Assembly: GCA_016201275.1 (NCBI GenBank)
Contig: JACQDB010000059.1
Span: forward strand, 1 to 47,284
Source of the DNA: Acidobacteriota bacterium
Lineage (GTDB): Bacteria > Acidobacteriota > Blastocatellia > UBA7656
Reading direction: 5' to 3'
Length of the DNA: 47,284 bases
The notes under the pieces are model-generated. The model was given only the letters and a program-made list of their open reading frames with translations, did not search any database and was not told where the DNA came from. Each line of letters starts with the position of its first letter. The first letter of the stretch is position 1. Both the position numbers and the translations under genes were made by a program. This document shows positions 1-44,297 of the stretch, one piece after another.

Positions 1-350
1 TTGGCCATTCGTCTGAATCCCCCCAACGGCAGTTGGGGGATGCTTAAAGTCCAGCCTACACACCCAGCCAGCAAAGTTTTTTTGCAATCCCCCCAACGGC
101 TGTTGGGGGATGCTTAAAGTTCAGCCTTGAGCCTCGGGCAAGGCTGAACTTTAACTATCCCCCGATTGCCATCGGGGGGATTAGTTGATGTTGCGCGGCG
201 TTTTGTAGGTTGGACTTTAACTATCCCCCGATTGCCATCGGCGGGATTGGTAGAGGTTGCGCTGTGTTTCGTAGGTTGGATTTTAACTATCCACCGACTG
301 CCGTCGAGGGGATTAGCAAGGCTGGTTCGTCTCTGAAAAATGTACAAAGT
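1..350. repeat. Composite palindromic repeat array, family A, copy i (cut by window edge)
   Basis: This 350-base stretch holds two forward units (near 17-60 and 88-125) of a hairpin unit whose core is CCCCAACGGCAGTTGGGG followed by ATGCTTAAAGTCCAGCC. A central turn (about 125-145) follows, then three reverse units (about 143-181, 208-250, 276-312). Forward and reverse halves are complementary, so the whole array can fold into one long branched hairpin. The right end, ATTAGCAAGGCTG then CTCTGAAAAATGTACAAAGT, is the same as in the copy at 28 kb. The first 53 bases match that copy, so the element continues left of the window. Short open frames inside it are translations of the repeat and are not called. 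Confidence 0.85.
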
Positions 351-418
351 CGCGCTAAGTCGCAATCATTAGGTGAGCGCGCAATCCTGCTCAACTGAGA
401 AGCGCGCCACCAAGCTGC

Positions 419-4143: not shown

Positions 4144-4256
4144 GCGAATTTCATTTGTCCGCGACCGCGACACCTGCTTGAGAGGCAGTCTGTGATCACC
4201 GCACAGCGGTCACAGACTGCCTCTCAAGCAATCGCACACATCTGCAAGCCGCTATA
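4140..4256. repeat. Family B palindromic element, copy 1
   Basis: Ends are TATAGCG (4140-4146) and CGCTATA (4250-4256). The centre is a 21-bp perfect hairpin, 4175-4195 with 4210-4230 (TGCTTGAGAGGCAGTCTGTG and complement). The flanks (ATTTCATTTGTCCGCGACC, and CACACATCTGCAAGCC) reappear in inverted order at 44199-44297. It ends 28 bases before the downstream gene start, so E and B together fill the gap between the two genes. Confidence 0.85.
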
Positions 4257-15079: not shown

Positions 15080-15343
15080 CTCTTCCCTTTGATACCTGCC
15101 TACGGTTTATTATCGGCTGTGCCAAATTCCTACTTGCGTAGGCGGTGACTGATTTTCGCAGTTGTACTATTTCTCTATAGAGTGTCACGAATGCTGGGAA
15201 AATGTTTAGCGAGAAGGAGAAGGCAAGGAAGACTTATTGAATGAATAGCAAGAAAACAATTACCTTCTTCCTGCGTGTCCACCTGCTTCGGCAATAACCG
15301 ATTCCCCCCAATTTTTAATTTCACTATGGAGTATAGATCACTA

Positions 15344-18300
15344 ATGATAGCTCGAAAATTTGTCCAAGGAAGATGGTATGCAATGGCAGTGCTGTTTGTC
15401 GCAACGGCTTGCCTGATGACTATGATGATCGTAAGTCGCCGCGTTCACACGGCAACCTCAGAGGCTATGCCTGCGCTGCGCGGAGAAGAGGCGGTCAATT
15501 ATCTCAAGCAACAAGGGCTGCATACGTCGCTTGGCGAAGCGATAGCGGCGGCGCGTTACGGCGTCCATTGGAGCAAGCATACGCCTTGGAAAGAATTGCC
15601 CGGAGCTTTTTATGCAGGCAATCCGGCGCAGCAGATGACGGCGTTCTTCACAGGGGAAGGCATCCACCTTGAAGCGAAATCGGCAAGCGATGATAAAGCG
15701 AAATCGGCGAGCCAAGATAAATGGCAAATGGGCATGAAGCTGACCGGCTTGGGCTACGGCGGACGCCTTTTGGTGGTCGCTGCGGGCGAGATGAAAGTCA
15801 ACGGCAACCGCGTAGAGATTAAAAAGAGCATCAAGCGTCAAGACACCAGAGGCGCGAGTCAGGAGTCGAGAGAGGAGAGTCTGAGAGCCTCCGACTTCAG
15901 TGGTGAGAGTCAAGACCTCGGACTCACCGAGTGGTACGTCAATCGCGCCGAGGGCATCGAGCAAGGGTTCGTCATCAATGCCGCGCCGGGTGAGCGCCGA
16001 GAAGGCGAGTGGTTGAAATTGCGGCTGACACTGGAAGGCGATTTGCAGGCGCAGCTTGCCGATGATGGCGAGGCGGTTGACTTGCTAACCAGAGGCGGAG
16101 AGAGAAGGCTGCGTTATGACAAGCTGCACGTCACGGACGCGACGGGGCGGGAGTTGGCAGCGCGTATGAGAGTCGAAGGCGGGGAGGTGATGCTGGAGGT
16201 GGAGGAGAGCGAGGCGGTCTATCCGTTGACCATAGACCCAGTGTTTTCACAGCAGCAGAAATTGACCGCCTCAGACGGCGCGGCGGGTGACCAGTTAGGC
16301 GCCTCAGTCGCCATCAGCGGCGAGACTGTGGTGGTTGGCGCTTTCACTGACGATGTCGGGGCGAACGCCAATCAAGGCTCGGCGTATGTGTTTGTGCGGA
16401 ACGGGGCGGTGTGGAGTGAGCAGCAAAAATTGACCGCCTCAGATGGCGCGGCAAGTGACCAGTTAGGCACCTCAGTGGGCATCAGCGGCGAGACCGTGGT
16501 GGTTGGCGCAGCCTTTGACAATGTTGGGGCGAACCAAGATCAAGGCTCGGCATACATCTTCGTGCGGAACGGGGCGGTGTGGAATGAGCAGCAGAAGTTG
16601 ACCGCCTCGGATGGCGGGGTGAATGGCCAGTTCGGCACCTCAGCGGGCATCAGCAGCGAGACCGTAGTGGTGGGCGCTGCTTTGGCGAATTCTGGTCAAG
16701 GCTCGGCGTATGTGTTTGTGCGGAACGGGGCGGTGTGGAACGAGCAGCAGAAATTGATCGCCGCAGATGGCGCGACGAATGACCGGTTCGGCTTCTCTAT
16801 TGCTATCCGCGGCGAGACCGTAGTGGTAGGCGCTTTCAATGACGCTAACGGGGCGAATTTCGGTCAAGGCTCGGCATACATCTTCGTGCGGAACGGGGCG
16901 GTGTGGAGCGAGCAACAAAAGCTGATCGCCTCAGACGGCACACTGGCTGACAGTTTCGGCAGATCAGTGGGTATCAGCGGCGAGACCGTGGTGGTCGGCG
17001 CTTTCAATGACACTAACGGGGCGAATATGTTTCAAGGCTCGGCATACATCTTCGTGCGGAACGGGGCGGTGTGGAGCGAACAGCAGAAATTGACTGCCGC
17101 AGACGGCGCGACGGATGATAATTTCGGCGCCTCAGTCGCCATCAGCGGCGAGACCGTGGTGGTCGGCGCTGCCCGTGACGATGTCGGGGCGAACGCCAAT
17201 CAAGGCTCGGCATACATCTTCGCCTGCACCAACACGCAGCAATGGGTGGAGCAAGCCAAGACTACCGCCTCAGATGGCGCGGGGGGGGACGAGTTCGGCA
17301 CCTCAGTCGCCATCAGCGGCGAGACCGTGGTGGTTGGCGCTCCTGCTGATGATGTAGGGGCGAACCTCGATCAAGGCTCGGCGTATGTCTTCGTCAGAGT
17401 TGGGGCGGTGTGGAGCCAGCAGCAAAAGTTGACGGCATCAGACGGCGCGGCATTTGACAATTTCGGCTTCTCGGTCGCCATCAGCGGCGAGACCGTGGTG
17501 GTTGGCGCACCCTTTGACGATGTCGGGGCGAACCCCGATCAAGGCTCGGCGTATGTCTTCGTGAGAACGGGGGCGGTATGGAGCCAACAGCAGAAATTGA
17601 CTGCCGCAGATGGCGCGGTGGATGATAATTTCGGTGCCTCAGTGGGCATCAGCGGCGAGACCTTGGTGGTCGGCGCTCCTGCTGATGATGTAGGGGCGAA
17701 CACCAATCAAGGCTCGGCATACATCTTCGTGCGGAACGGAGCGGTGTGGAGCGAGCAGCAGAAGTTGATCGCCTCAGACGGCGCGGCGGGTGACAGTTTT
17801 GGCACCTCCGTTGCTATCAGCGGCGAGACCGTGGTGGTCGGCTCTCGCGTCGACGCTGTCGGAGCGAACCTCGATCAAGGCTCGGCATACATCTTCGTCA
17901 GAGTCGGGGCGGTGTGGAATGAGCAGCAAAAATTGACCGCCTCAGACGGCGCGGCGAGTGACCAGTTCGGCACCTCAGTGGGCATCAGCGGCGAGAGCGT
18001 GGTGGTTGGCGCAGCCTTTGACAATGTCGGGGCGAACAACGATCAAGGCTCGGCATACATCTTCGTGCGGAACGGAGCAGTGTGGAGCCAGCAGCAAAAG
18101 TTGACTGCATCAGATGGTGCGATTTTTGACAATTTCGGCAACTCAGTTGCCATCAGCGGCGAGACCGTGGTGGTCGGCGCTGCTCTTGGCAATGTCGGGG
18201 CGAACAACAATCAAGGCTCGGCGTATGTTTTCGTCAGAGTCGGGGCGGTGTGGAGCGAGCAGCAGAAGTTGACCGCCTCAGATGGCGCGGCGGCTGACTT

Positions 18301-19255
18301 CTTCGGCTTCTCAGTCACCATCAGCGGCGAGACCGTGGTGGTTGGCTCTCGCTTTGACGATGTAGGGAACGTGGCTAATCAAGGGTCGGCGTATGTCTTC
18401 GTCCGTCAGTGCATAAATAACACGAATAACACGCCTCCGACGATCACTACTTCACCGGTCACGCTTCAGCAAGGGCAGTCCCTCAGCGGCGCAGGCATCG
18501 CTACGGTTTCCGATAACCAAGACGCGGCTTCTACGCTCGTCGTCTCGGTGATCTCCAGCACCACTGCCATAGGCGTTACCCTCACCAACATCGCCAACAC
18601 CAGCGGCGCGATTACTGCTAACCTCGCGGCAAACTGCGCGGCAAGCGGCGGCAAGGTGCGCTTGCGGGTGACCGACAGCGGCGGCTTGTTCACTGACACA
18701 GACCTGCAAGTGAATGTCACGCCGAATAACACTCCACCGGTCATTACTTGCCCTGTGAGCTTGGGGGTGAAGACGGCAAACCCCGGCAGCACGACGGTGG
18801 TGGTCAACTACCCGCCGCCTACAGCCACAGACGACTGCGGTGTGCCAAGCGTGGTCTGTCTGCCGCCATCGGGTTCGGCATTCCCTTTGGGAACGACGAC
18901 CGTCACTTGCACAGCGACCGACAATACAGGCAACACGGCGCAGTGCAGCTTCACGGTGACGACCTTCGACATCTGTTTGCAGGATGATAGTAATCCTGCG
19001 ACCGTGCTGTTGTTGAATTCGTTGACCGGCGATTATCGCTTCTGTTGTAGCGGCACTGTCTTTGCTGGCAAAGGCAAGGTGAAGAAACAAGGCAGTACCT
19101 GCACCTTGACGCATAACGCCGTTGACCGTCGCGTGATTGCCAAACTCGAAGGCGCGTTGAACCGTGGCACGGCATCTTTGCAATCACCTGTAGGGACGAC
19201 GCGCTGCGCCATCAGTGACCGCGACATTCGCAATAACTCTTGCGTGTGCCAATAA
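15344..19255 (+). CDS. Giant secreted FG-GAP/integrin-like repeat protein with HYR domain
   Basis: About 1303 residues. The N terminus (MIARKFVQGRWYAMAVLF then VATACLMTMMIV) is a signal or anchor. Next is a module of about 250 residues that ends YPLTIDPVF, common before such propellers. Then 13 repeats of about 56 residues (16250-18410) with the pattern QQKLTASDGAA-D-FG-SVAISGETVVVGA-DDVGAN-NQGSAYVFVRNGAVW. These are FG-GAP blades, close to two seven-bladed propellers. Repeat 3 lacks several residues (SGQGSAY); repeat 6 has a diverged end (CTNTQQW). A cadherin/Ig-like domain, a HYR domain (DDCGVPS, TCTATDNTGNTAQCSF) and a Cys-rich C-terminal domain follow. Probably a surface adhesion protein. 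Starts at 15326 or 15383 are also possible. Confidence 0.85.
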   Translation: MIARKFVQGRWYAMAVLFVATACLMTMMIVSRRVHTATSEAMPALRGEEAVNYLKQQGLHTSLGEAIAAARYGVHWSKHTPWKELPGAFYAGNPAQQMTAFFTGEGIHLEAKSASDDKAKSASQDKWQMGMKLTGLGYGGRLLVVAAGEMKVNGNRVEIKKSIKRQDTRGASQESREESLRASDFSGESQDLGLTEWYVNRAEGIEQGFVINAAPGERREGEWLKLRLTLEGDLQAQLADDGEAVDLLTRGGERRLRYDKLHVTDATGRELAARMRVEGGEVMLEVEESEAVYPLTIDPVFSQQQKLTASDGAAGDQLGASVAISGETVVVGAFTDDVGANANQGSAYVFVRNGAVWSEQQKLTASDGAASDQLGTSVGISGETVVVGAAFDNVGANQDQGSAYIFVRNGAVWNEQQKLTASDGGVNGQFGTSAGISSETVVVGAALANSGQGSAYVFVRNGAVWNEQQKLIAADGATNDRFGFSIAIRGETVVVGAFNDANGANFGQGSAYIFVRNGAVWSEQQKLIASDGTLADSFGRSVGISGETVVVGAFNDTNGANMFQGSAYIFVRNGAVWSEQQKLTAADGATDDNFGASVAISGETVVVGAARDDVGANANQGSAYIFACTNTQQWVEQAKTTASDGAGGDEFGTSVAISGETVVVGAPADDVGANLDQGSAYVFVRVGAVWSQQQKLTASDGAAFDNFGFSVAISGETVVVGAPFDDVGANPDQGSAYVFVRTGAVWSQQQKLTAADGAVDDNFGASVGISGETLVVGAPADDVGANTNQGSAYIFVRNGAVWSEQQKLIASDGAAGDSFGTSVAISGETVVVGSRVDAVGANLDQGSAYIFVRVGAVWNEQQKLTASDGAASDQFGTSVGISGESVVVGAAFDNVGANNDQGSAYIFVRNGAVWSQQQKLTASDGAIFDNFGNSVAISGETVVVGAALGNVGANNNQGSAYVFVRVGAVWSEQQKLTASDGAAADFFGFSVTISGETVVVGSRFDDVGNVANQGSAYVFVRQCINNTNNTPPTITTSPVTLQQGQSLSGAGIATVSDNQDAASTLVVSVISSTTAIGVTLTNIANTSGAITANLAANCAASGGKVRLRVTDSGGLFTDTDLQVNVTPNNTPPVITCPVSLGVKTANPGSTTVVVNYPPPTATDDCGVPSVVCLPPSGSAFPLGTTTVTCTATDNTGNTAQCSFTVTTFDICLQDDSNPATVLLLNSLTGDYRFCCSGTVFAGKGKVKKQGSTCTLTHNAVDRRVIAKLEGALNRGTASLQSPVGTTRCAISDRDIRNNSCVCQ
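16250..18410 (+). repeat. Thirteen tandem 168-bp coding repeats (FG-GAP blades)
   Basis: Near-identical DNA repeats with a 168-base period, most carrying ATCAGCGGCGAGACCGTGGT and GATCAAGGCTCGGC or close variants. Third-codon bases are also largely conserved, which points to recent duplication or gene conversion between blades. Prone to copy-number change and to assembly error. Confidence 0.9.
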
Positions 19256-27621: not shown

Positions 27622-28415
27622 AGTCGGTTGACGCACAAGGCTTGCTTCTCGCTTGCTGCGTCAGCTTCAGAGTGATTGATTGAACAAGGCAACGCTCCTT
27701 TTGTCGTCACCTTCGATGTCACTGCTTCCCTGGCTCCCTGTGGTTTCATCGCCGACAAGGAGACGCTTTCAAAAGCGGCACGCTTGCATTTGCAGCAACG
27801 CCTTAGCTCGACTTTGTACAATTTCAGATTGGACAACACCAATCAAGCGCTGACGTTGCGGCTCGCGCCTGGAATTATTGAACCCCAGCTGTTGAGGGGA
27901 GGTTCAATAATTCTAGGGGTTGAAAAAGCCAATGAAATCAGGCTGCTTCGCCGCTGAAAAATCTAGCAACGGAGAGCCGAGGCAGTGAGGCAATTCATCT
28001 GAGTCCCCCCAACGGGAGCCGAGGCGGTGAGGCCATTCGTCTGAATTCCCCCAACGGAAAGTCGAAGCGGTTTGGCCATTCGTCTGAATCCCCCCAACGG
28101 CAGTTGGGGGATGCTTAAAGTCCAGCCTACATTCAGCCTTGGGCATCGGGCAAGGTTGGACTTTAACCATCCCCCGACGGCAGTCGGGGGGATTCGTTTA
28201 TCGTTGGCAGTGTTTCGTAGGTTGGACTTTAAGCATCCCCCGACTGCCATCGGGGGGATTAGCAAGGCTGCTTCGCCTCTGAAAAATGTACAAAGTCGAG
28301 CTTAGGGAGATGGGAAAAAATAGCATACGGTTGAGAAGCGGTCTGTGACCGCCAGTCCAGCGGTCACAGACCGCTTCTCAACGGCAATGATGGGATTATA
28401 TTTTCTTTCTCTTCC
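27622..28415. other. Intergenic region of about 790 bases with family A and C elements
   Basis: Holds a short hairpin AATTATTGAACC to GGTTCAATAATT (27873-27912), the family A array copy ii and the family C element that runs into the stop of the next (minus-strand) gene. The plus-strand open frame at 27676-27957 shows no family resemblance and crosses the hairpin; it is not called. Confidence 0.6.
27969..28296. repeat. Composite palindromic repeat array, family A, copy ii
   Basis: The left part is three decayed copies of a word of about 47 bases (ACGGAGAGCCGAGGCAGTGA then GGCAATTCATCTGAGTCC). Next come an intact forward unit (28089-28130), a central turn (CAGCCTTGGGCATCGGGCAA, near 28133) and two reverse units (about 28150-28195, 28215-28262). 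The right end, CTCTGAAAAATGTACAAAGT, equals that of copy i. Bases 28073-28125 match the start of this window. Confidence 0.85.
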
Positions 28416-28420
28416 CTAAG
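28301..28420. repeat. Family C palindromic element, copy 1
   Basis: Ends CTTAGGGA (28301-28308) and TCCCTAAG (28413-28420). The core hairpin TTGAGAAGCGGTCTGTGACC (28331-28352 with 28360-28381) has 22-bp perfect arms and a 7-base loop. The flanks AAAAAATAGCAT and TTATATTTTCTTTCTC recur in copy 2 at 37.7 kb. Its last bases supply the TAG stop codon (28416-28418, minus strand) of the neighbouring membrane-protein gene. Confidence 0.85.
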
Positions 28421-28961
28421 AGACTGATGCAGTAGGCGTAGAGGTAGGAGCCTCGCTGCCCATTAGTCGGCGCGCTGCAAGTGAGCGCGCAAACAGCACA
28501 GACTCTACCACGAGCAGCACAGAGGAAATCGCCAGCGTCGTTCCGCCGCGCAGAATATCCGCCATCGCCAGACGCATCGGCGCGAAACCGCCGGATTGCG
28601 AATGCAGCCAGAACGCCGCTATCGCCGCCCCACTCAAAAGCGAACCGAGAATGTGCAGCAAGTATTCCGCCGATGGCAGACCACCAAGCGAGGCTCTCGA
28701 CCGGCGCTCGATCAACACATCTGCCAACGTGTTGGCGAGGTCGGCCACGAACAACGCGAGCAACAGTCGGCGAGCCTCGGAGGGTGCGAACATCACCACC
28801 AAAAGCATGGCGATGAACAATGCCGCACGAGCCAGATGAGTAATCTCTTCAGCGACGCTTGCAGGGCGACGATAAAGCCGAAAGCGATAAAGGTGGAAGT
28901 AAACAACATCAAGGCCGCCGATGAGCGATGCCGCCAGAAGCAGTTCGAATATAGTCTTCAT
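28416..28961 (-). CDS. Membrane protein of unknown function, third gene of ArsR operon
   Basis: 181 residues with about five hydrophobic helices (1-20, 45-62, 65-85, 105-122, 140-160) and basic loops. I recognise no named family. Its start overlaps the hydrolase stop by four bases (ATGA), which argues strongly that it is real and translationally coupled. The last few codons (APTSTPTASVS) are low in complexity and the TAG stop lies inside the family C element. The element may have trimmed the original C terminus. Confidence 0.8.
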   Translation of the reverse strand: MKTIFELLLAASLIGGLDVVYFHLYRFRLYRRPASVAEEITHLARAALFIAMLLVVMFAPSEARRLLLALFVADLANTLADVLIERRSRASLGGLPSAEYLLHILGSLLSGAAIAAFWLHSQSGGFAPMRLAMADILRGGTTLAISSVLLVVESVLFARSLAARRLMGSEAPTSTPTASVS

Positions 28962-32934: not shown

Positions 32935-33375
32935 ACTTTGTACAGGCGAACAAGATTTGCCAATCCCCCCAACTCCCGTTGGGGGATGCTTAAAGTCCAA
33001 CCTACAAGACCAAGTGAACAAGCTTTGTCAATCCCCCCAACGGGAGTTGGGGGATGCTTAAAGTCCAACCTACGCAACTAGGTGAATAAGGCTTGCCAAT
33101 CCCCCCAACGGGAGTTGGGGGAAGGTTAAAGTCCAACCTACGAAACTAGGCGAATAAGGCTTGCCAATCCCCCCAACGGGAGTTGGGGGATGCTTAAAGT
33201 CCAACCTTGCCCAATGCCAAAAGCGAAGGCTGTAGGGAACTGTAGGCTGAACTTTAACCTTCCCCCAACTCCCGTTGGGGGGATTGAAAAAAAATCTAGG
33301 TGCTTGCGGTGTAGGTTGAACTTTAACCTTCCCCCAACTCCCGTTGGGGGGATTCAGGAGAATTTCCTAACCACC
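32935..33375. repeat. Composite palindromic repeat array, family A, copy iii
   Basis: It begins at the base after the DUF2264 stop with ACTTTGTACAGGCGAACAAG. Four forward units have a 67-68-base period (near 32964, 33032, 33100, 33167; core CCCCCAACGGGAGTTGGGGG then ATGCTTAAAGTCCAACCTAC). A central turn (about 33205-33245) is followed by two reverse units (about 33250-33293 and 33320-33353). The right end, GATTCAGGAGAATTTCCTAA then CCACCTC, resembles that of copy iv. Short frames inside it are repeat translations. Confidence 0.85.
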
Positions 33376-33421
33376 TCAACTTTGCGTTGGTAAATTTTTC
33401 AGAGACCACCCTAGATGAAAA

Positions 33422-33560
33422 GTTGAAGAGCAATAAAATGGAAAATGAAAATTTGGCAGATGAAAAACTGGAGAGTCATAAAATGGAAAACGAAAATTTG
33501 GCGAGTGAAAAACTGGAGAGTCATAAAATGGAAAATGAAAAATTGGAGGGCAATAAAATG
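33422..33560 (+). repeat. Four tandem ribosome-binding-site-plus-ATG modules before the GH42 gene
   Basis: In-frame ATGs at 33438, 33483, 33528 and 33558 are each preceded, at similar spacing, by a purine-rich site: GAAGAGCAATAAA, GGAGAGTCATAAA (twice) and GGAGGGCAATAAA. The first two intervals are 45 bases and nearly identical, encoding MENENLADEKLESHK-type peptides; the last is a shorter version. Confidence 0.85.
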
Positions 33561-35681
33561 AAGCACGAAATCAAGGGACTGCCATTTGGCATACAGTATT
33601 ATCGAGCGCCGACGCCGTTTGTCGAAGAATGGGAAACCGATTTGCAACGCATCAAGGATATGGGCTTCACCATGATTCAAGTGCGTCCGCAATGGCGTTG
33701 GCACGAACGCCGCGAAGGCGAGTTTGTCTGGGACGATTTAGATCACCTGTTTGATGTGACGGCTCGTTTGGGTTTGGGGGTGATGGTGCAATTCATGCTG
33801 GAAACCGCGCCCACTTGGGTCTATCAAAAACATGAGTGCTATCGCGTTGACCTCTCAGGCAACAAGATATTGCCAAGCGCCAACGGGGCTTTTTATGTTG
33901 GCGGCTGGCTTCCTTGTTTCGACCACGAGGGCTTGCGCGAAGAAGGGGCGCGATTTTTGCGCGTCGCCGTCGAGCGTTACCGCGACCGCGACAACCTGTT
34001 GTTGTGGGAAGCCTGGAACGAGCCGCGCAGCCGTCCGGTCGGAGAGTGTTGCTGTCCGACTTCGCGTCAAAGCTATCGCCGCTTCGTGCAACAAAGACAC
34101 GGCAGCATAGAGGCTTTTAATGATTTCTTCGGCAAGGCTTACGACAGCTTCGCCGAAATTGAACCGCCGAGTAGTTACACCGATTATTCGGAGTTATGGC
34201 TATGGCGGCAATGGGCTATGGAGAGTGCGGTCTCGCGGGTTGAGTGGGCTTACCAAGCAATTCGCTCTGCCGATGACACGCACCCGACGATGGCTCACGT
34301 CGGAGCCAACTCGCTTGGACAAGACATCCTTGGCGATAGTTCCGACGATTGGGCGACGGCGCGAGTGGTGGATTTTTACGGCACCAGTCTGCTGTTTTTC
34401 ACCGGCGATTTTCTGGAGTTCGACAACATCGAAGGCGAAGCGGTTTTTTCAAGCTCTACGTGGCGCGATAACTACTACGTGATTTCGATGGGCGCCGACT
34501 GGCTGCGTAGCGTCAGCCCTTACTACTGGATCAACGAAATCTACACCAACTCATTTTTCTACACCACGCCGGACATCGAAGGCGATGACTTGCGCTTTCG
34601 CATCTGGCCCTACGTGGTGGGCGGCGCGAAGGGCGTGGTCTTCTGGCAGTACAAATCGGAGCGCGTAGCAAATGAAAGCGGTTGCGCCGGACTGGTAGGC
34701 ATCGGCGGCGAGATCACCGAGCGAGCGCAGGCTTGCGCCATCGAAGCCAAACGCATATACCAACACGCCGACGCCTTGCGCGACTTTCAACTTGATGCGG
34801 CTCAAGTCGCCATCGTCTATGACATTGAATCTGATCTAGCTTCGCGTGTAGAAGAAACCAACGGCGGGAACTTCCTCGCAGGCACGGTCAAATACACTTA
34901 TAAATCGGCGCTCAAGGGGGCGTACAATCTTTTTTGGCAGGCGCGTGAGCCTGTAGATTTTGTCTCGACCCGCGAGTTGGAAAAAATTTTCGCCTACCGT
35001 TTAGTTTATCTGCCAGAGATGTTAATAGCCGACGAGCGCGTGGCGCAAATCCTGAAAGAGTATGTCGAGCAAGGCGGAATGTTGATCGCCGAAGAAGGGC
35101 TGGGACTGCGAGACAAGCGTTGCTGGATGAGTACGCGAGCGCCTGGCGCGGGGTTGGATGAATTGTTTGGCGTGTTGCAAATCAAGACCTCCATACTGCG
35201 CGAGCCTGTGGCTATTGAGTGGAACCAACTGACGCTGCCAGTGACGGCGCGACGCGCCAGTTTGCAAGCAAGCGGCGGCGACACTGAGGCGCAGTGGGCG
35301 GAAGGCGGAGCCGCTGTGGTGACTTCCACAAGCGGCAAGGGCAAGACCTTGCTGATGGGTTTTCATCCGGGGATATGTTATACAGAAACGCGAGATGAAA
35401 ATTACATAAAGATGGCGCGTGGTTGGTTGCGTGAATGCGACATCCAGCCTTTGGTTGAAGCGGAGGAGAGCGACATCGTGCAATGGCGAGCAGGTCACAT
35501 TCAAGGCGAGCGAGCTATCTTTCTGCTCAACTACGAAGCGCATACGGTGCGCGTGAAGATCAAGCTGGACGGCTTAGGCAGCAAGCCGCGTGATTTGTTT
35601 GCCAACGCGCAAATGGAATCACAGGCTGATGGGCTAACGGTCATGCTGCCGCCGCGAGAAGTCTGCTGCTTGATAGGTTGA
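33558..35681 (+). CDS. GH42-type beta-galactosidase
   Basis: 707 residues from the last of four tandem starts; longer forms from 33528, 33483 or 33438 add 10 to 40 charged residues. The (beta/alpha)8 barrel shows FGIQYYRAPTPFVEEWETDL, IKDMGFTMIQVRPQWRWHER and FDVTARLGLGVMVQF. The acid/base is E155 in WEAWNEP, and the nucleophile is probably E327 in WINEIYTNSF. A trimerisation/glutamine-amidotransferase-like domain (about 435-625, YVEQGGMLIAEEGLGL) and a short C-terminal beta domain follow, as in GH42. There is no signal peptide, so it is cytoplasmic and acts on imported galactosides. It follows a family A array and the DUF2264 gene. Confidence 0.9.
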   Translation: MKHEIKGLPFGIQYYRAPTPFVEEWETDLQRIKDMGFTMIQVRPQWRWHERREGEFVWDDLDHLFDVTARLGLGVMVQFMLETAPTWVYQKHECYRVDLSGNKILPSANGAFYVGGWLPCFDHEGLREEGARFLRVAVERYRDRDNLLLWEAWNEPRSRPVGECCCPTSRQSYRRFVQQRHGSIEAFNDFFGKAYDSFAEIEPPSSYTDYSELWLWRQWAMESAVSRVEWAYQAIRSADDTHPTMAHVGANSLGQDILGDSSDDWATARVVDFYGTSLLFFTGDFLEFDNIEGEAVFSSSTWRDNYYVISMGADWLRSVSPYYWINEIYTNSFFYTTPDIEGDDLRFRIWPYVVGGAKGVVFWQYKSERVANESGCAGLVGIGGEITERAQACAIEAKRIYQHADALRDFQLDAAQVAIVYDIESDLASRVEETNGGNFLAGTVKYTYKSALKGAYNLFWQAREPVDFVSTRELEKIFAYRLVYLPEMLIADERVAQILKEYVEQGGMLIAEEGLGLRDKRCWMSTRAPGAGLDELFGVLQIKTSILREPVAIEWNQLTLPVTARRASLQASGGDTEAQWAEGGAAVVTSTSGKGKTLLMGFHPGICYTETRDENYIKMARGWLRECDIQPLVEAEESDIVQWRAGHIQGERAIFLLNYEAHTVRVKIKLDGLGSKPRDLFANAQMESQADGLTVMLPPREVCCLIG

Positions 35682-37718: not shown

Positions 37719-37837
37719 TAAGGGAAGCGGCAAGAAATAGCATCCCGTTGAGAAGCGGTCTCTGACCGCCAGTCTCGCGGTCAGAGACCGCTTCTCAAGG
37801 GGAATTGGGGGGTTATATTTTCTTCCTCTTCCCTAAG
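37719..37837. repeat. Family C palindromic element, copy 2
   Basis: Ends TAAGGGAAG and CTTCCCTAAG. The core TTGAGAAGCGGTCTCTGACC (37748-37769 with 37777-37798) has 22-bp perfect arms and a 7-base loop. The flanks AAGAAATAGCAT and TTATATTTTCTTCCTC equal those of copy 1 with few changes. It lies inside the tetR leader, and its end CTAAGAGG forms the ribosome binding site of tetR. Confidence 0.88.
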
Positions 37838-37846
37838 AGGTAAACG

Positions 37847-41496: not shown

Positions 41497-42939
41497 ATGC
41501 GTAGAGTCATTCATCTCTGTTTCGCTTTTATCGCCGTGGCGATTCTTGCGGCGCTGTCAGGCTGCGCTGTCAAATCGAAATATGTTCGCCCCGCTGTCAA
41601 CACGCCTGTGAAGTGGACTACTCATTCTCTCATCAGCCCGTCGCAGGTCATAGAGCCGGAGTGGTGGAAGAATTTAAGAGATGGCGAGCTTGAGGCGCTG
41701 ATGGCGCAAGCCCTGTCAGGGAATCTCGATCTCAAAATAGCGGTCTCTCGAATCCGCCAGTATCGCGCTCTTGCCGGAGTCGCGAAAGCTGATCTTTATC
41801 CCACGGTCAGCGCCGACGCTTCCTTCGAGAGGAGCAAGGGTTCAGGCAGCACGTTGCTGACCAAGGAATTGAAGTCACAGGGTTTCGATTCGCTGACCAG
41901 ACCCTCCAATCTTTTTTCCGCGCCCCTCGAAGTGGCGTATGAAATTGATTTTCTGAGCCGCGCCCGTTTGTCCAAACAGGCTACAGGAGCCGATTTCAAG
42001 GCTACGGCTGAAGAGGCTCGGGCGATTTTTCTGGCGCTGGCAGCGACCGTTGCCGCAAGCTATTTCGAGATTCGCCAGATTGATGAGCAAACCACGCTGC
42101 GCCAGAAAGCCATGAGCCTGAGTCGTTCTACCCTAGACATTTTGAAGGCGCGATATGAATCCGGTTTGACCGGCGAGACAGACCTTTTGCGTCAACAAGC
42201 TGAACTGGCAGGGTTGGAAGCGGAGAAAGCCGAGCTTGAGATTCGGCGCAAGGAAGCAGAGAACAGGCTGTGCGGACTTTTGGGAAAGAACCCCGGCGAG
42301 ATAGCCTTTGCGCCAAGAGAGCTTCGACAATCGCTAGCCATTCCTTCGGTTGCTGCGGGCATTCCTTCCGCGTTGCTGCAACGACGACCGGACATACTGG
42401 CGAGCGAACAACGTCTGATTGCCGCCAATGCTCGCGTCGGCGAAGCGCGGGCAGCCTTCTTTCCGCGCATCTCCTTGACTGGCAACTTCGGCTACCAAAG
42501 CAGCGCCCTGAAAAATCTTCTTTCCGTCGGGAGCATAGCCTGGGGGCTTGGTCCGCGCATTCACATTCCTATATTTGAGGGAGGGAGGAATCGCGCTCGT
42601 CTGGAATCGGCAAAAGAGGAGAAAGAGCAGGCCCTCAATCACTACAAGCTGACCGTGCTGCGCGCCTTCGAAGAAGTCGAGAACGCTCTGGCAGCCATCG
42701 AAGGGCATGAGCGACAACAGGCACATCTGACAACGGCGCGAGACAATCTCAGGGAGGCGCATCGTCAAGTGGCGGCGCGATTTGAGAAGGGCGCGGTCTC
42801 TATGCTTGAGGTGCTGGAAGCGGAAAGGAGCCTGCTCGCGGCTGAGGAGCAATTGCTCTCTGTTTACAGGCTGCGCCTTGATGCTGCGATTTTTCTTTAC
42901 AAAGCTCTGGGCGGTGGATGGGGAAACGAACTCCCATGA
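41497..42939 (+). CDS. Outer-membrane efflux lipoprotein (NodT/OprM, TolC family)
   Basis: 480 residues. A lipoprotein signal peptide ends in the lipobox LSGC (MRRVIHLCFAFIAVAILAAL then SGCAV). Two repeated outer-membrane-factor halves follow: EWWKNLRDGELEALMAQALS, GNLDLKIAVSRIRQYRA, and in the second half ALLQRRPDILASEQRLIAAN, ARVGEARAAFFPRISLTG. RFEKGAVSMLEVLEAERSLL is the typical C-terminal helix. It is the exit channel of the pump. It starts two bases after the adaptor stop, with AAGGAG upstream. It is the last gene of the operon; a family A array follows after 28 bases. Confidence 0.95.
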   Translation: MRRVIHLCFAFIAVAILAALSGCAVKSKYVRPAVNTPVKWTTHSLISPSQVIEPEWWKNLRDGELEALMAQALSGNLDLKIAVSRIRQYRALAGVAKADLYPTVSADASFERSKGSGSTLLTKELKSQGFDSLTRPSNLFSAPLEVAYEIDFLSRARLSKQATGADFKATAEEARAIFLALAATVAASYFEIRQIDEQTTLRQKAMSLSRSTLDILKARYESGLTGETDLLRQQAELAGLEAEKAELEIRRKEAENRLCGLLGKNPGEIAFAPRELRQSLAIPSVAAGIPSALLQRRPDILASEQRLIAANARVGEARAAFFPRISLTGNFGYQSSALKNLLSVGSIAWGLGPRIHIPIFEGGRNRARLESAKEEKEQALNHYKLTVLRAFEEVENALAAIEGHERQQAHLTTARDNLREAHRQVAARFEKGAVSMLEVLEAERSLLAAEEQLLSVYRLRLDAAIFLYKALGGGWGNELP

Positions 42940-42967
42940 GTTTCGATTATGAATGACCCGATCTCTA

Positions 42968-43256
42968 AGAGCGTGTTTGGAAATTATGTGCCTGGCGAAT
43001 CCCCCCGACGGAAGTCGGGGGATGGTTAAAGTCCAGCATATAAAACGGAGCAAAAGATCAGCGAATCCCCCCGACGGAAGTCGGGGGATGGTTAAAATCC
43101 AGCCTTCGCCTTTGGCATGGTAAGGTTGGATTTTACCCATCCCCCAACTGCCGTTGGGGGGATTGAAAAAAGCCTAGTTGCCTGCTGTGTAGGCTGGGCT
43201 TTAACCATCCCCCAACTGCCGTTGGGGGGATTTAGGCGAATTTCCAAACACCCTCT
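42968..43256. repeat. Composite palindromic repeat array, family A, copy iv
   Basis: Terminal inverted repeats AGAGCGTGTTTGGAAATT (42968-42985) and AATTTCCAAACACCCTCT (43239-43256), 17 of 18 matched, enclose two forward units (core CCCCCGACGGAAGTCGGGGG then ATGGTTAAAGTCCAGC), a central turn (CCAGCCTTCGCCTTTGGCAT, near 43101) and two reverse units (near 43120-43165 and 43192-43232). It is the clearest complete copy: symmetrical, 289 bases, non-coding. Confidence 0.88.
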
Positions 43257-43393
43257 AAGCAGTAAGGCAACAGGTAAAAGGCAAAAGTAAAAAAGCAATC
43301 GAGCCGCGAGCTTTACGTTGTTGATATGCCTGAAAGCTTCTGCTGCTTATTTTGTACAACCATGTTTTCCAAATCAAATCAGGAGGAACCACT

Positions 43394-44198: not shown

Positions 44199-44297
44199 TA
44201 TAGCGGTTTGCAGATGTGTGCGATTTGTTGAGAGGCGGTCTGTGACCGCCGCCTCTCAACAAGGTGTCGTGGTCGCGGACAAATGAAATTCGCTATA
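44199..44297. repeat. Family B palindromic element, copy 2
   Basis: Ends TATAGCG (44199-44205) and CGCTATA (44291-44297). It is the inverted counterpart of 4140-4256, with the same flanks (TTTGCAGATGTGTGCGAT, and GTCGCGGACAAATGAAATTC). Its core hairpin is shortened: arms 44225-44238 and 44249-44262 only, so part of one arm has been lost. Confidence 0.85.

Follow-up and report, generated by a model that had tools for sequence, protein, structure and literature searches.

REP-like hairpin arrays inside terminal-inverted-repeat elements, with a candidate fused two-domain Y1 partner, in an Acidobacteriota genome

We propose that the DNA analysed here, a window of 47,284 nucleotides forming the whole of contig C112 in a 6.84-Mb genome of 162 contigs (G000), probably records two layers of mobile DNA: REP-like units with a fused Y1 partner, carried inside elements bounded by terminal inverted repeats (TIRs). 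The inner layer would comprise a REP-like repeat with 16 nt between its GTAG and its GC-rich hairpin, and a two-domain Y1 protein in which domain 1 would supply the catalytic Tyr and a metal-binding Gln, and domain 2 the HUH pair, such that the chain might act as a single-chain IS608-type dimer with one of the two trans active sites kept. Such a protein could bind the single-stranded hairpin and cut next to it, and in this way units could multiply or disperse to form ‘forward...reverse’ arrays. The outer layer would consist of TIR elements without a transposase gene (one at 42970-43254, with about 100 CTCGACTTTGTAC-type ends elsewhere) that have the arrays as their cargo, their insertion at 5-bp targets resembling CTNAG being probably the work of an IS701-type DDE transposase. 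Three points here are our inference: recognition and mobilisation of the units by the two-domain protein, the composite nature of its active site, and the role of an IS701 transposase in moving the outer elements.

The element at 42970-43254, here called element iv, was delimited by direct reading and a repeat search of 42960-43265. Its left TIR, AGCGTGTTTGGAAATT (42970-42985, plus strand), and its right TIR, AATTTCCAAACACCCT (43239-43254, minus strand), are 16 bp long and match at 15 of 16 positions, and an exact 5-bp target duplication, CTAAG, lies directly outside both ends (42965-42969 and 43255-43259). Placed by the repeat search and a unit profile, two forward units (F, hairpin first; F1 at 42998-43040 and F2 at 43064-43106, minus strand) are followed, after a short central turn (43107-43122), by two reverse units (R, GTAG first and then the hairpin; R1 at 43123-43164 and R2 at 43189-43232, plus strand), with F and R units 87-88% complementary. 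An earlier, sequence-only reading of this stretch had given the terminal repeats 18 bp and one mismatch; the mismatch stands, but the true length is 16 bp and the claimed ends were two bases too wide on each side, since CTAAG lies directly outside the 16-bp repeats and part of the duplication had thus been included. Likewise, GTAG had been put about 18 bases before the hairpin, and R2 in fact reads GTAG, 16 nt, GC-rich hairpin, GATT.

The ends of element iv are rare, because a 17-base pattern made from them, allowing up to two mismatches, gave 15 matches in the genome against one for the control, with mismatch-free matches across the whole genome only at the two ends of the element itself; the idea that they define a common family was accordingly rejected. 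Other arrays sampled have different ends, except that in L075 (contig C47) one similar end adjoins a unit. Compared with the common-family elements described below, element iv has different ends, but the length and type of its duplication are alike. A 150-bp element at L073 also has ends similar to those of element iv. No alignable empty site was obtained, since the gene to the left has a best relative just 36% identical in the seven family genomes searched; element flanks joined in a script matched, in the portion of the genome searched, only the ends of other repeat families.

Element iv is flanked by reading frames on one strand, one ending at 42939 and the next starting at 43352, and is overlapped by an antisense frame (42334-43140). 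A 287-nt single strand of the element folds as one long hairpin (z = -13.04), with none of 200 shuffles equally stable, and an Rfam scan of the window returned no family at the gathering score. One might argue from this fold, and from its position between same-strand frames, that these repeats serve the host chiefly as structured DNA or RNA, as bidirectional terminators for example, and that their mobility is ancient or secondary; roles for REPs in termination and mRNA stability are indeed described in a passage of PMC6006769. We find this improbable as the main explanation, as the copy number, the target duplications and the variety of locations all point to mobility in the past, with which a host role would still be compatible.

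Four arrays are located in the window by the unit profile, FFRRR (16-314), FRR (28087-28260), FFFFRR (32962-33354) and FFRR (42998-43232), which confirms the number given in the sequence-only reading and shows its range of 2F/2R to 4F/2R to be slightly too narrow. The FRR array sits within a complete 494-bp common-family element on the plus strand (27807-28300, or 27802-28305 with the CTTAG duplication on each side), which has CTCGACTTTGTAC-type ends, a structured left part and 43-bp repeats. FFRRR lies in the right part of a second common-family element (1-354, plus strand), with a right end at about 354 and the remainder cut off by the start of the contig. From the repeat search, unit profile and flank alignment, the FFFFRR array sits amongst diverged outer sequences (32944-33377) with ends that are not delimited.

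Several further repeats were noted in passing. At 27870-27915, and at the same place in other common elements, there is a long conserved hairpin, GGAATGATTGAACCTC...GAGGTTCAATCATTCC, in which paired changes can be made out by eye. Another dispersed family, GTTGAGAAGCGGTCTGTGACCGCC-like together with its complement, occupies 28304-28422, 37721-37839, 44227-44250 and 4177-4227, and also adjoins an array-bearing element in L027. The frame at 15275-19255 contains about 13 tandem repeat copies (16192-18405), spaced mostly at 168 bases (56 residues), and degenerate short-period repeats in multiples of 15 bases (33416-33563), in a frame starting at 33387, adjoin the FFFFRR array. At the contig end (47179-47284), two identical 35-base GC-rich repeats, TAGCCCGCGAAGCGGGCG..., lie 71 bases apart and possibly represent another REP-like family.

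The unit itself recurs across the genome. A search with it, which the sequence-only reading had proposed, gave 423 matches to the 25-base pattern GTAGGNTGGNNTTTAANCATCCCCC at up to three mismatches, and none when the pattern was read backwards. We ran the unit profile over the window and 59 loci (L002-L030 and L039-L068), leaving out antisense hairpin matches below 20 bits, and found the order F*R* in all 47 distinct arrays sampled, so that the BIME-like pairing of inverted units previously suggested holds throughout this sample; both orientations are present in each of the 39 arrays away from contig edges. Spacing is regular: of 127 same-strand neighbours, 64 have a period of 66 and all except one fall within 65-72, and the F-R gap is 9 nt in 35 of 46 cases. 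Among 99 distinct units, stem positions 26 and 35 pair in 91 and positions 28 and 33 in 89, where shuffling reached at most 78 for each in a control that ignores relatedness among units; these 99 were gathered by a consensus pattern, and very diverged units are missing from them. The pairs covary, one being A-T in 46 and G-C in 44 units, the other C-G in 64 and T-A in 24. We make no claim for a second small stem between GTAG and hairpin, positions 6 and 17 being without clear coupling (T-C 33, T-G 29, C-C 20 and C-G 14 of 99). As with REPs and BIMEs, then, we see a high-copy, short, GC-rich palindrome, opposite units nearby and a Y1 gene between inverted copies, but GTAG stands mostly 16 nt from the stem, and not, as GTAG or GTGG, at the hairpin foot.

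Alignment of the sequences flanking the arrays reveals sharp common borders, with the terminal repeats CTCGACTTTGTACAATTTCAGA / TCTGAAAAATGTACAAAGTCGAG beyond them. Across the genome, the right-end pattern matches 101 times (control 0) and the left-end pattern 83 times (control 1), and amongst the loci examined there are 39 distinct complete common-family elements of 362-709 bp, counts having been deduplicated across strands. Their TIRs match, ungapped, at 13-21 of the first 22 bases. Both flanks are available for 38 elements, of which 20 show an exact duplication of 5 bp, CTTAG in eight instances, and 18 do not, although eight more agree at four of five positions; shuffling gave a mean of 3.0 and a maximum of 10, and exact duplications at other lengths from 2 to 10 numbered 0 or 1. 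The suggestion that element iv is a non-autonomous mobile element is upheld by its TIRs and exact duplication, together with those of the 20 larger unit-bearing elements. The idea that its terminal repeats form part of a REP/RAYT mechanism is not supported: they resemble the repeats of TIR elements with target duplications, as DDE transposases make, and would appear, judged on sequence, to belong to a different transposition system.

These same duplications bear on whether the Y1 protein alone might move the units, in which case the arrays would be REPIN/BIME clusters of the usual kind, and both the terminal repeats and the 5-bp duplications would be coincidental. The REP-like order, the GTAG motif and the Y1 gene between units would all be expected, but 20 exact duplications exceed the shuffled maximum of 10, the boundaries are sharp and shared, and IS200/IS605 elements are described, in a part of PMC2817692, as having neither terminal inverted repeats nor larger target duplications; we give this explanation very little credence indeed.

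The two-layer reading calls for a transposase acting on the outer ends. No transposase gene was recognised between CTCGACTTTGTAC ends in the loci read, nor was one found there between ends identical to those of the common family. The genome search found four DDE_Tnp_1 genes. One of them, L195 (contig C135), belongs to a 1.3-kb element that has CTCGACTTTATCCAT ends between two copies of CTTAG, and this gene encodes an IS701-family transposase (NF049999, 289.6 bits, cut-off 170). The ends of the element agree with those of the common family over the first 9 bases only, and the CTTAG duplication is common to both; because of these nine terminal bases and the shared duplication, we suggest from sequence comparison that an element of the L195 type is the likely kind of partner for the outer elements. 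On C22, another IS701-type gene, which holds a stop, adjoins a CTCGACTTTGTAC-ended element from the outside.

The common-family end pattern is present in 8 of 56 genomes, with 87 matches in G000 and one to five in each of the seven others, all of the latter at 2-3 mismatches; in G011, a 177-bp element (L205) has ends similar to the CTCGACTTTGTAC type and ACGGA on both sides. Several common-family elements adjoin the ends of other repeat families. At L005 (1772-1836), L141 (1522-1585), L047, L002 and L008 (1772-1833) we noted repeat families starting AGAG[CG]GTGTCGCA or GGATTGTGGA, which directly follow a TTAG- or TAAG-type duplication and have array-bearing elements at their ends. Such positions suggest nested insertion at CTNAG-like sites.

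G005, a relative of the same family as G000, gave no matches to the common-family end pattern. Its arrays run forward then reverse in the 21 loci looked at, L216 excepted, and a scan of 26 loci gave only five array-bearing elements with paired GG[TC]AGTGTCYTAA-like ends. Read by eye, two of these five have exact 8-bp duplications, one being the element seen in both L119 and L123 (GAAATTAT) and the other that in L215 (AGAGCCTG); L114, L221 and L224 have near-matching duplications. From the elements of G000 and G005 taken together, it follows that REP-like arrays are the cargo of TIR elements with unrelated ends in at least two genera.

Turning to the inner layer, there are eight Y1_Tnp matches in the genome, two of which are halves of a single reading frame on contig C80. 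This two-domain gene is preceded by forward units, and a reverse unit overlaps its stop codon; on sequence, the product of the gene probably acts on these flanking hairpins. No outer terminal repeat stands beside the gene within the 8 kb examined, where the one match, at 3 mismatches, is about 3.7 kb away. The RAYT link drawn in the sequence-only reading thus finds support in a Y1 gene between inverted units, as does the mobility of element iv in its own ends, but the enzyme is not a canonical RAYT, for it has two fused Y1 domains and an IS200-type Tyr motif, and scores below the cut-off of the RAYT model.

Strong full-length matches to the two-domain protein occur in 4 of 58 genomes (G000, G004, G005 and G022) and the unit pattern in 7 of 58, with an overlap of three, so that co-occurrence is imperfect; G022 has different hairpins beside its copy of the gene. 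Named records yielded relatives at 18 loci, some of them the G005 and G022 records themselves, from Acidobacteriota (Blastocatellia, Pyrinomonadaceae and others) and Planctomycetota (mostly Pirellulaceae); L181, L185 and L189-L192 match the query only in part, and the L192 protein has a single domain. The gene is frame-shifted or interrupted in L165 (G004), L178 and L188, which suggests decay in some lineages.

A script for GTAG and hairpins was run over 13 loci, including L178 with its interrupted frame; it required perfect stems and so missed diverged units. Downstream of the gene, GTAG precedes a hairpin in R orientation by 15-17 nt at 11 of the 13, and upstream, in F orientation, the two are 16-18 nt apart at eight. 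By this script, L179, L184 and L186 have no upstream GTAG unit; L183 and L187 have none at the expected distance and orientation, L187 having none at all and L183 units at other distances only. Units in the opposite orientation were also seen, one at L081 and two at L186 upstream, and one at L183 downstream.

This arrangement helps in weighing whether the TIR elements alone are mobile, in which case the hairpins would be passive filler in a MITE family moved by a DDE transposase, and the flanked Y1 gene would be a chance capture. The DDE-type duplications of the common family, and an IS701-family element sharing its terminal 9 bases, are as one would then expect. Inverted GTAG-16 nt-hairpin units nevertheless stand on both sides of the Y1 gene at 8 of 13 loci, in two phyla and with hairpins that vary between loci, and the G005 arrays sit between unrelated ends; we think it unlikely, though the most serious of the alternatives, that TIR elements account for everything.

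The two-layer reading rests further on the protein, for which we aligned 12 genes from nine genomes. In domain 1, Tyr122 and Gln126 are kept in 12 of 12 and HxH is absent from all (HLR, QFR, HIR, NLR, HVQ, DVK and so on), whereas in domain 2 HxH (HUH) is kept in every sequence and Gln at Tyr+4 in none. The Tyr position of domain 2 holds F or W in six sequences and Y in the other six, never with Gln four residues on; because of these six, that position alone does not exclude a second active site. All 12 have the Tyr motif YxxxQxxHHxY, with no N-P of the kind that ends class 2 RAYT motifs such as YIxxNP, as given in table rows of PMC6006769. The Gln four residues past the catalytic Tyr is the metal ligand typical of an IS200/IS605 TnpA, while the single Y1 domain of a RAYT, holding HUH and Tyr together, is replaced in all 12 by a split between domains. 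The G000 protein, which has two Pfam Y1_Tnp stretches, scores 146.6 bits against NF033573 (IS200/IS605 TnpA; NCBIfam cut-off 55) and 57.5 bits against NF047646 (RAYT; cut-off 80).

In IS608, as set out in a portion of PMC5934647, the active site is formed in trans by the Tyr of one monomer and the HUH of the other, and a passage of PMC6006769 gives the third metal ligand as the residue about four places after the Tyr (Gln in IS608). The split seen here suggests one composite active site and is what would be left by a fused dimer with a single remaining site, domain 1 then giving Tyr and Gln, and domain 2 the HUH. An AlphaFold2 model of the L175 protein (mean pLDDT 91.8, pTM 0.87) resembles ISDra2 (2xma_A) over residues 8-126 (Z 12.2, rmsd 1.4, 118 aligned) and IS608 (2vju_A) over residues 148-275 (Z 12.1, rmsd 2.2, 126 aligned); the E. 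coli RAYT 4er8 ranks below these IS200-type enzymes (Z 6.9, rmsd 2.6, 108 aligned), unrelated folds at Z of about 5 having been disregarded. VIA-align ranges like 8..275, by their ends alone, hint that the last helix of domain 2 may pack on domain 1 in the model, and they carry no weight in our reading. In a tree of domains, domain 2 forms one supported clade and domain 1 another that also takes in L188, the N-terminal part of which belongs to an interrupted two-domain gene; with tree support of 89/65, the protein could have arisen either by duplication or by fusion of two lineages.

Synthesising these findings, we lean, by a modest margin of confidence, towards a new REP system: one with a half-dead, fused-dimer Y1 enzyme and a single composite trans site, with GTAG 16 nt from the stem, found in Acidobacteriota and Planctomycetota, and with arrays that, in two genera at least, have come to ride in unrelated TIR elements of DDE type, so that spread would follow two independent routes. 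The mechanisms of REP dissemination are called poorly understood in the abstract of PMC8266576. A natural two-domain enzyme in which HUH lies apart from Tyr would open two points to direct testing, namely one versus two active sites in REP processing, and the need of a GTAG guide to touch the hairpin; that TIR elements in two or more genera enclose REP-like arrays also hints at a second route for such repeats, to about 100 sites. Titles and abstract openings in searches of an open-access library yielded no paper on a fused two-domain Y1/RAYT protein, and none describing REP arrays carried by TIR elements that show target duplications.

Of known systems, REP/BIME/REPIN repeats and their RAYTs (REPtrons) share with ours the high-copy GC-rich hairpins, the GTAG, the inverted pairs and clusters, and a Y1 gene between inverted copies. 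They differ in that GTAG stands at the hairpin foot there and 16 nt away here (distances of 1-2 nt are reported for some subclass 2.5 REPs in a passage of PMC6006769), and in that our enzyme has two fused Y1 domains with an IS200-type Tyr motif, and the arrays are TIR-element cargo. Within the TnpA_Y1 classes, as described in parts of PMC6006769, the Y---Q--HH signature of subclass 1.2 is that of domain 1 here, this subclass being said to have no IS properties and to occur mostly in Cyanobacteria and Bacteroidetes. Class 3, found mainly in Planctomycetes, Acidobacteria and Proteobacteria, likewise has flanking atypical hairpins, but with NHVH, a model length of 178 aa and the foot CnGA; unlike either, our proteins hold HUH and Tyr in separate domains of one chain. 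Unexpectedly long proteins were, by the account given in that same source, discarded as gene fusions or annotation errors.

The TnpA dimers of IS608 and ISDra2 match each half in fold, and in the Gln four residues after Tyr, but here the halves are fused, one site is apparently kept, and we saw no mobile IS possessing left and right ends. Bacterial MITEs and IS701 elements offer the parallel for the outer layer, with short TIR elements lacking a transposase gene, target duplications and many copies; the cargo, a REP-type array of variable unit number, sets ours apart, as does a candidate partner IS whose ends match over the first 9 bases only. A further comparison is with the TIRYTs and TIRtrons of PMC3733652, parts of which describe long inverted repeats around Y1 genes, including in Acidobacteria, as well as REP units adjoined to unrelated stem-loops in Pseudomonas. 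In that work the TIRs flank the Y1 gene itself, with no target duplication mentioned in section 16, whereas here the TIR elements, themselves without a Y1 gene, carry REP-like arrays.
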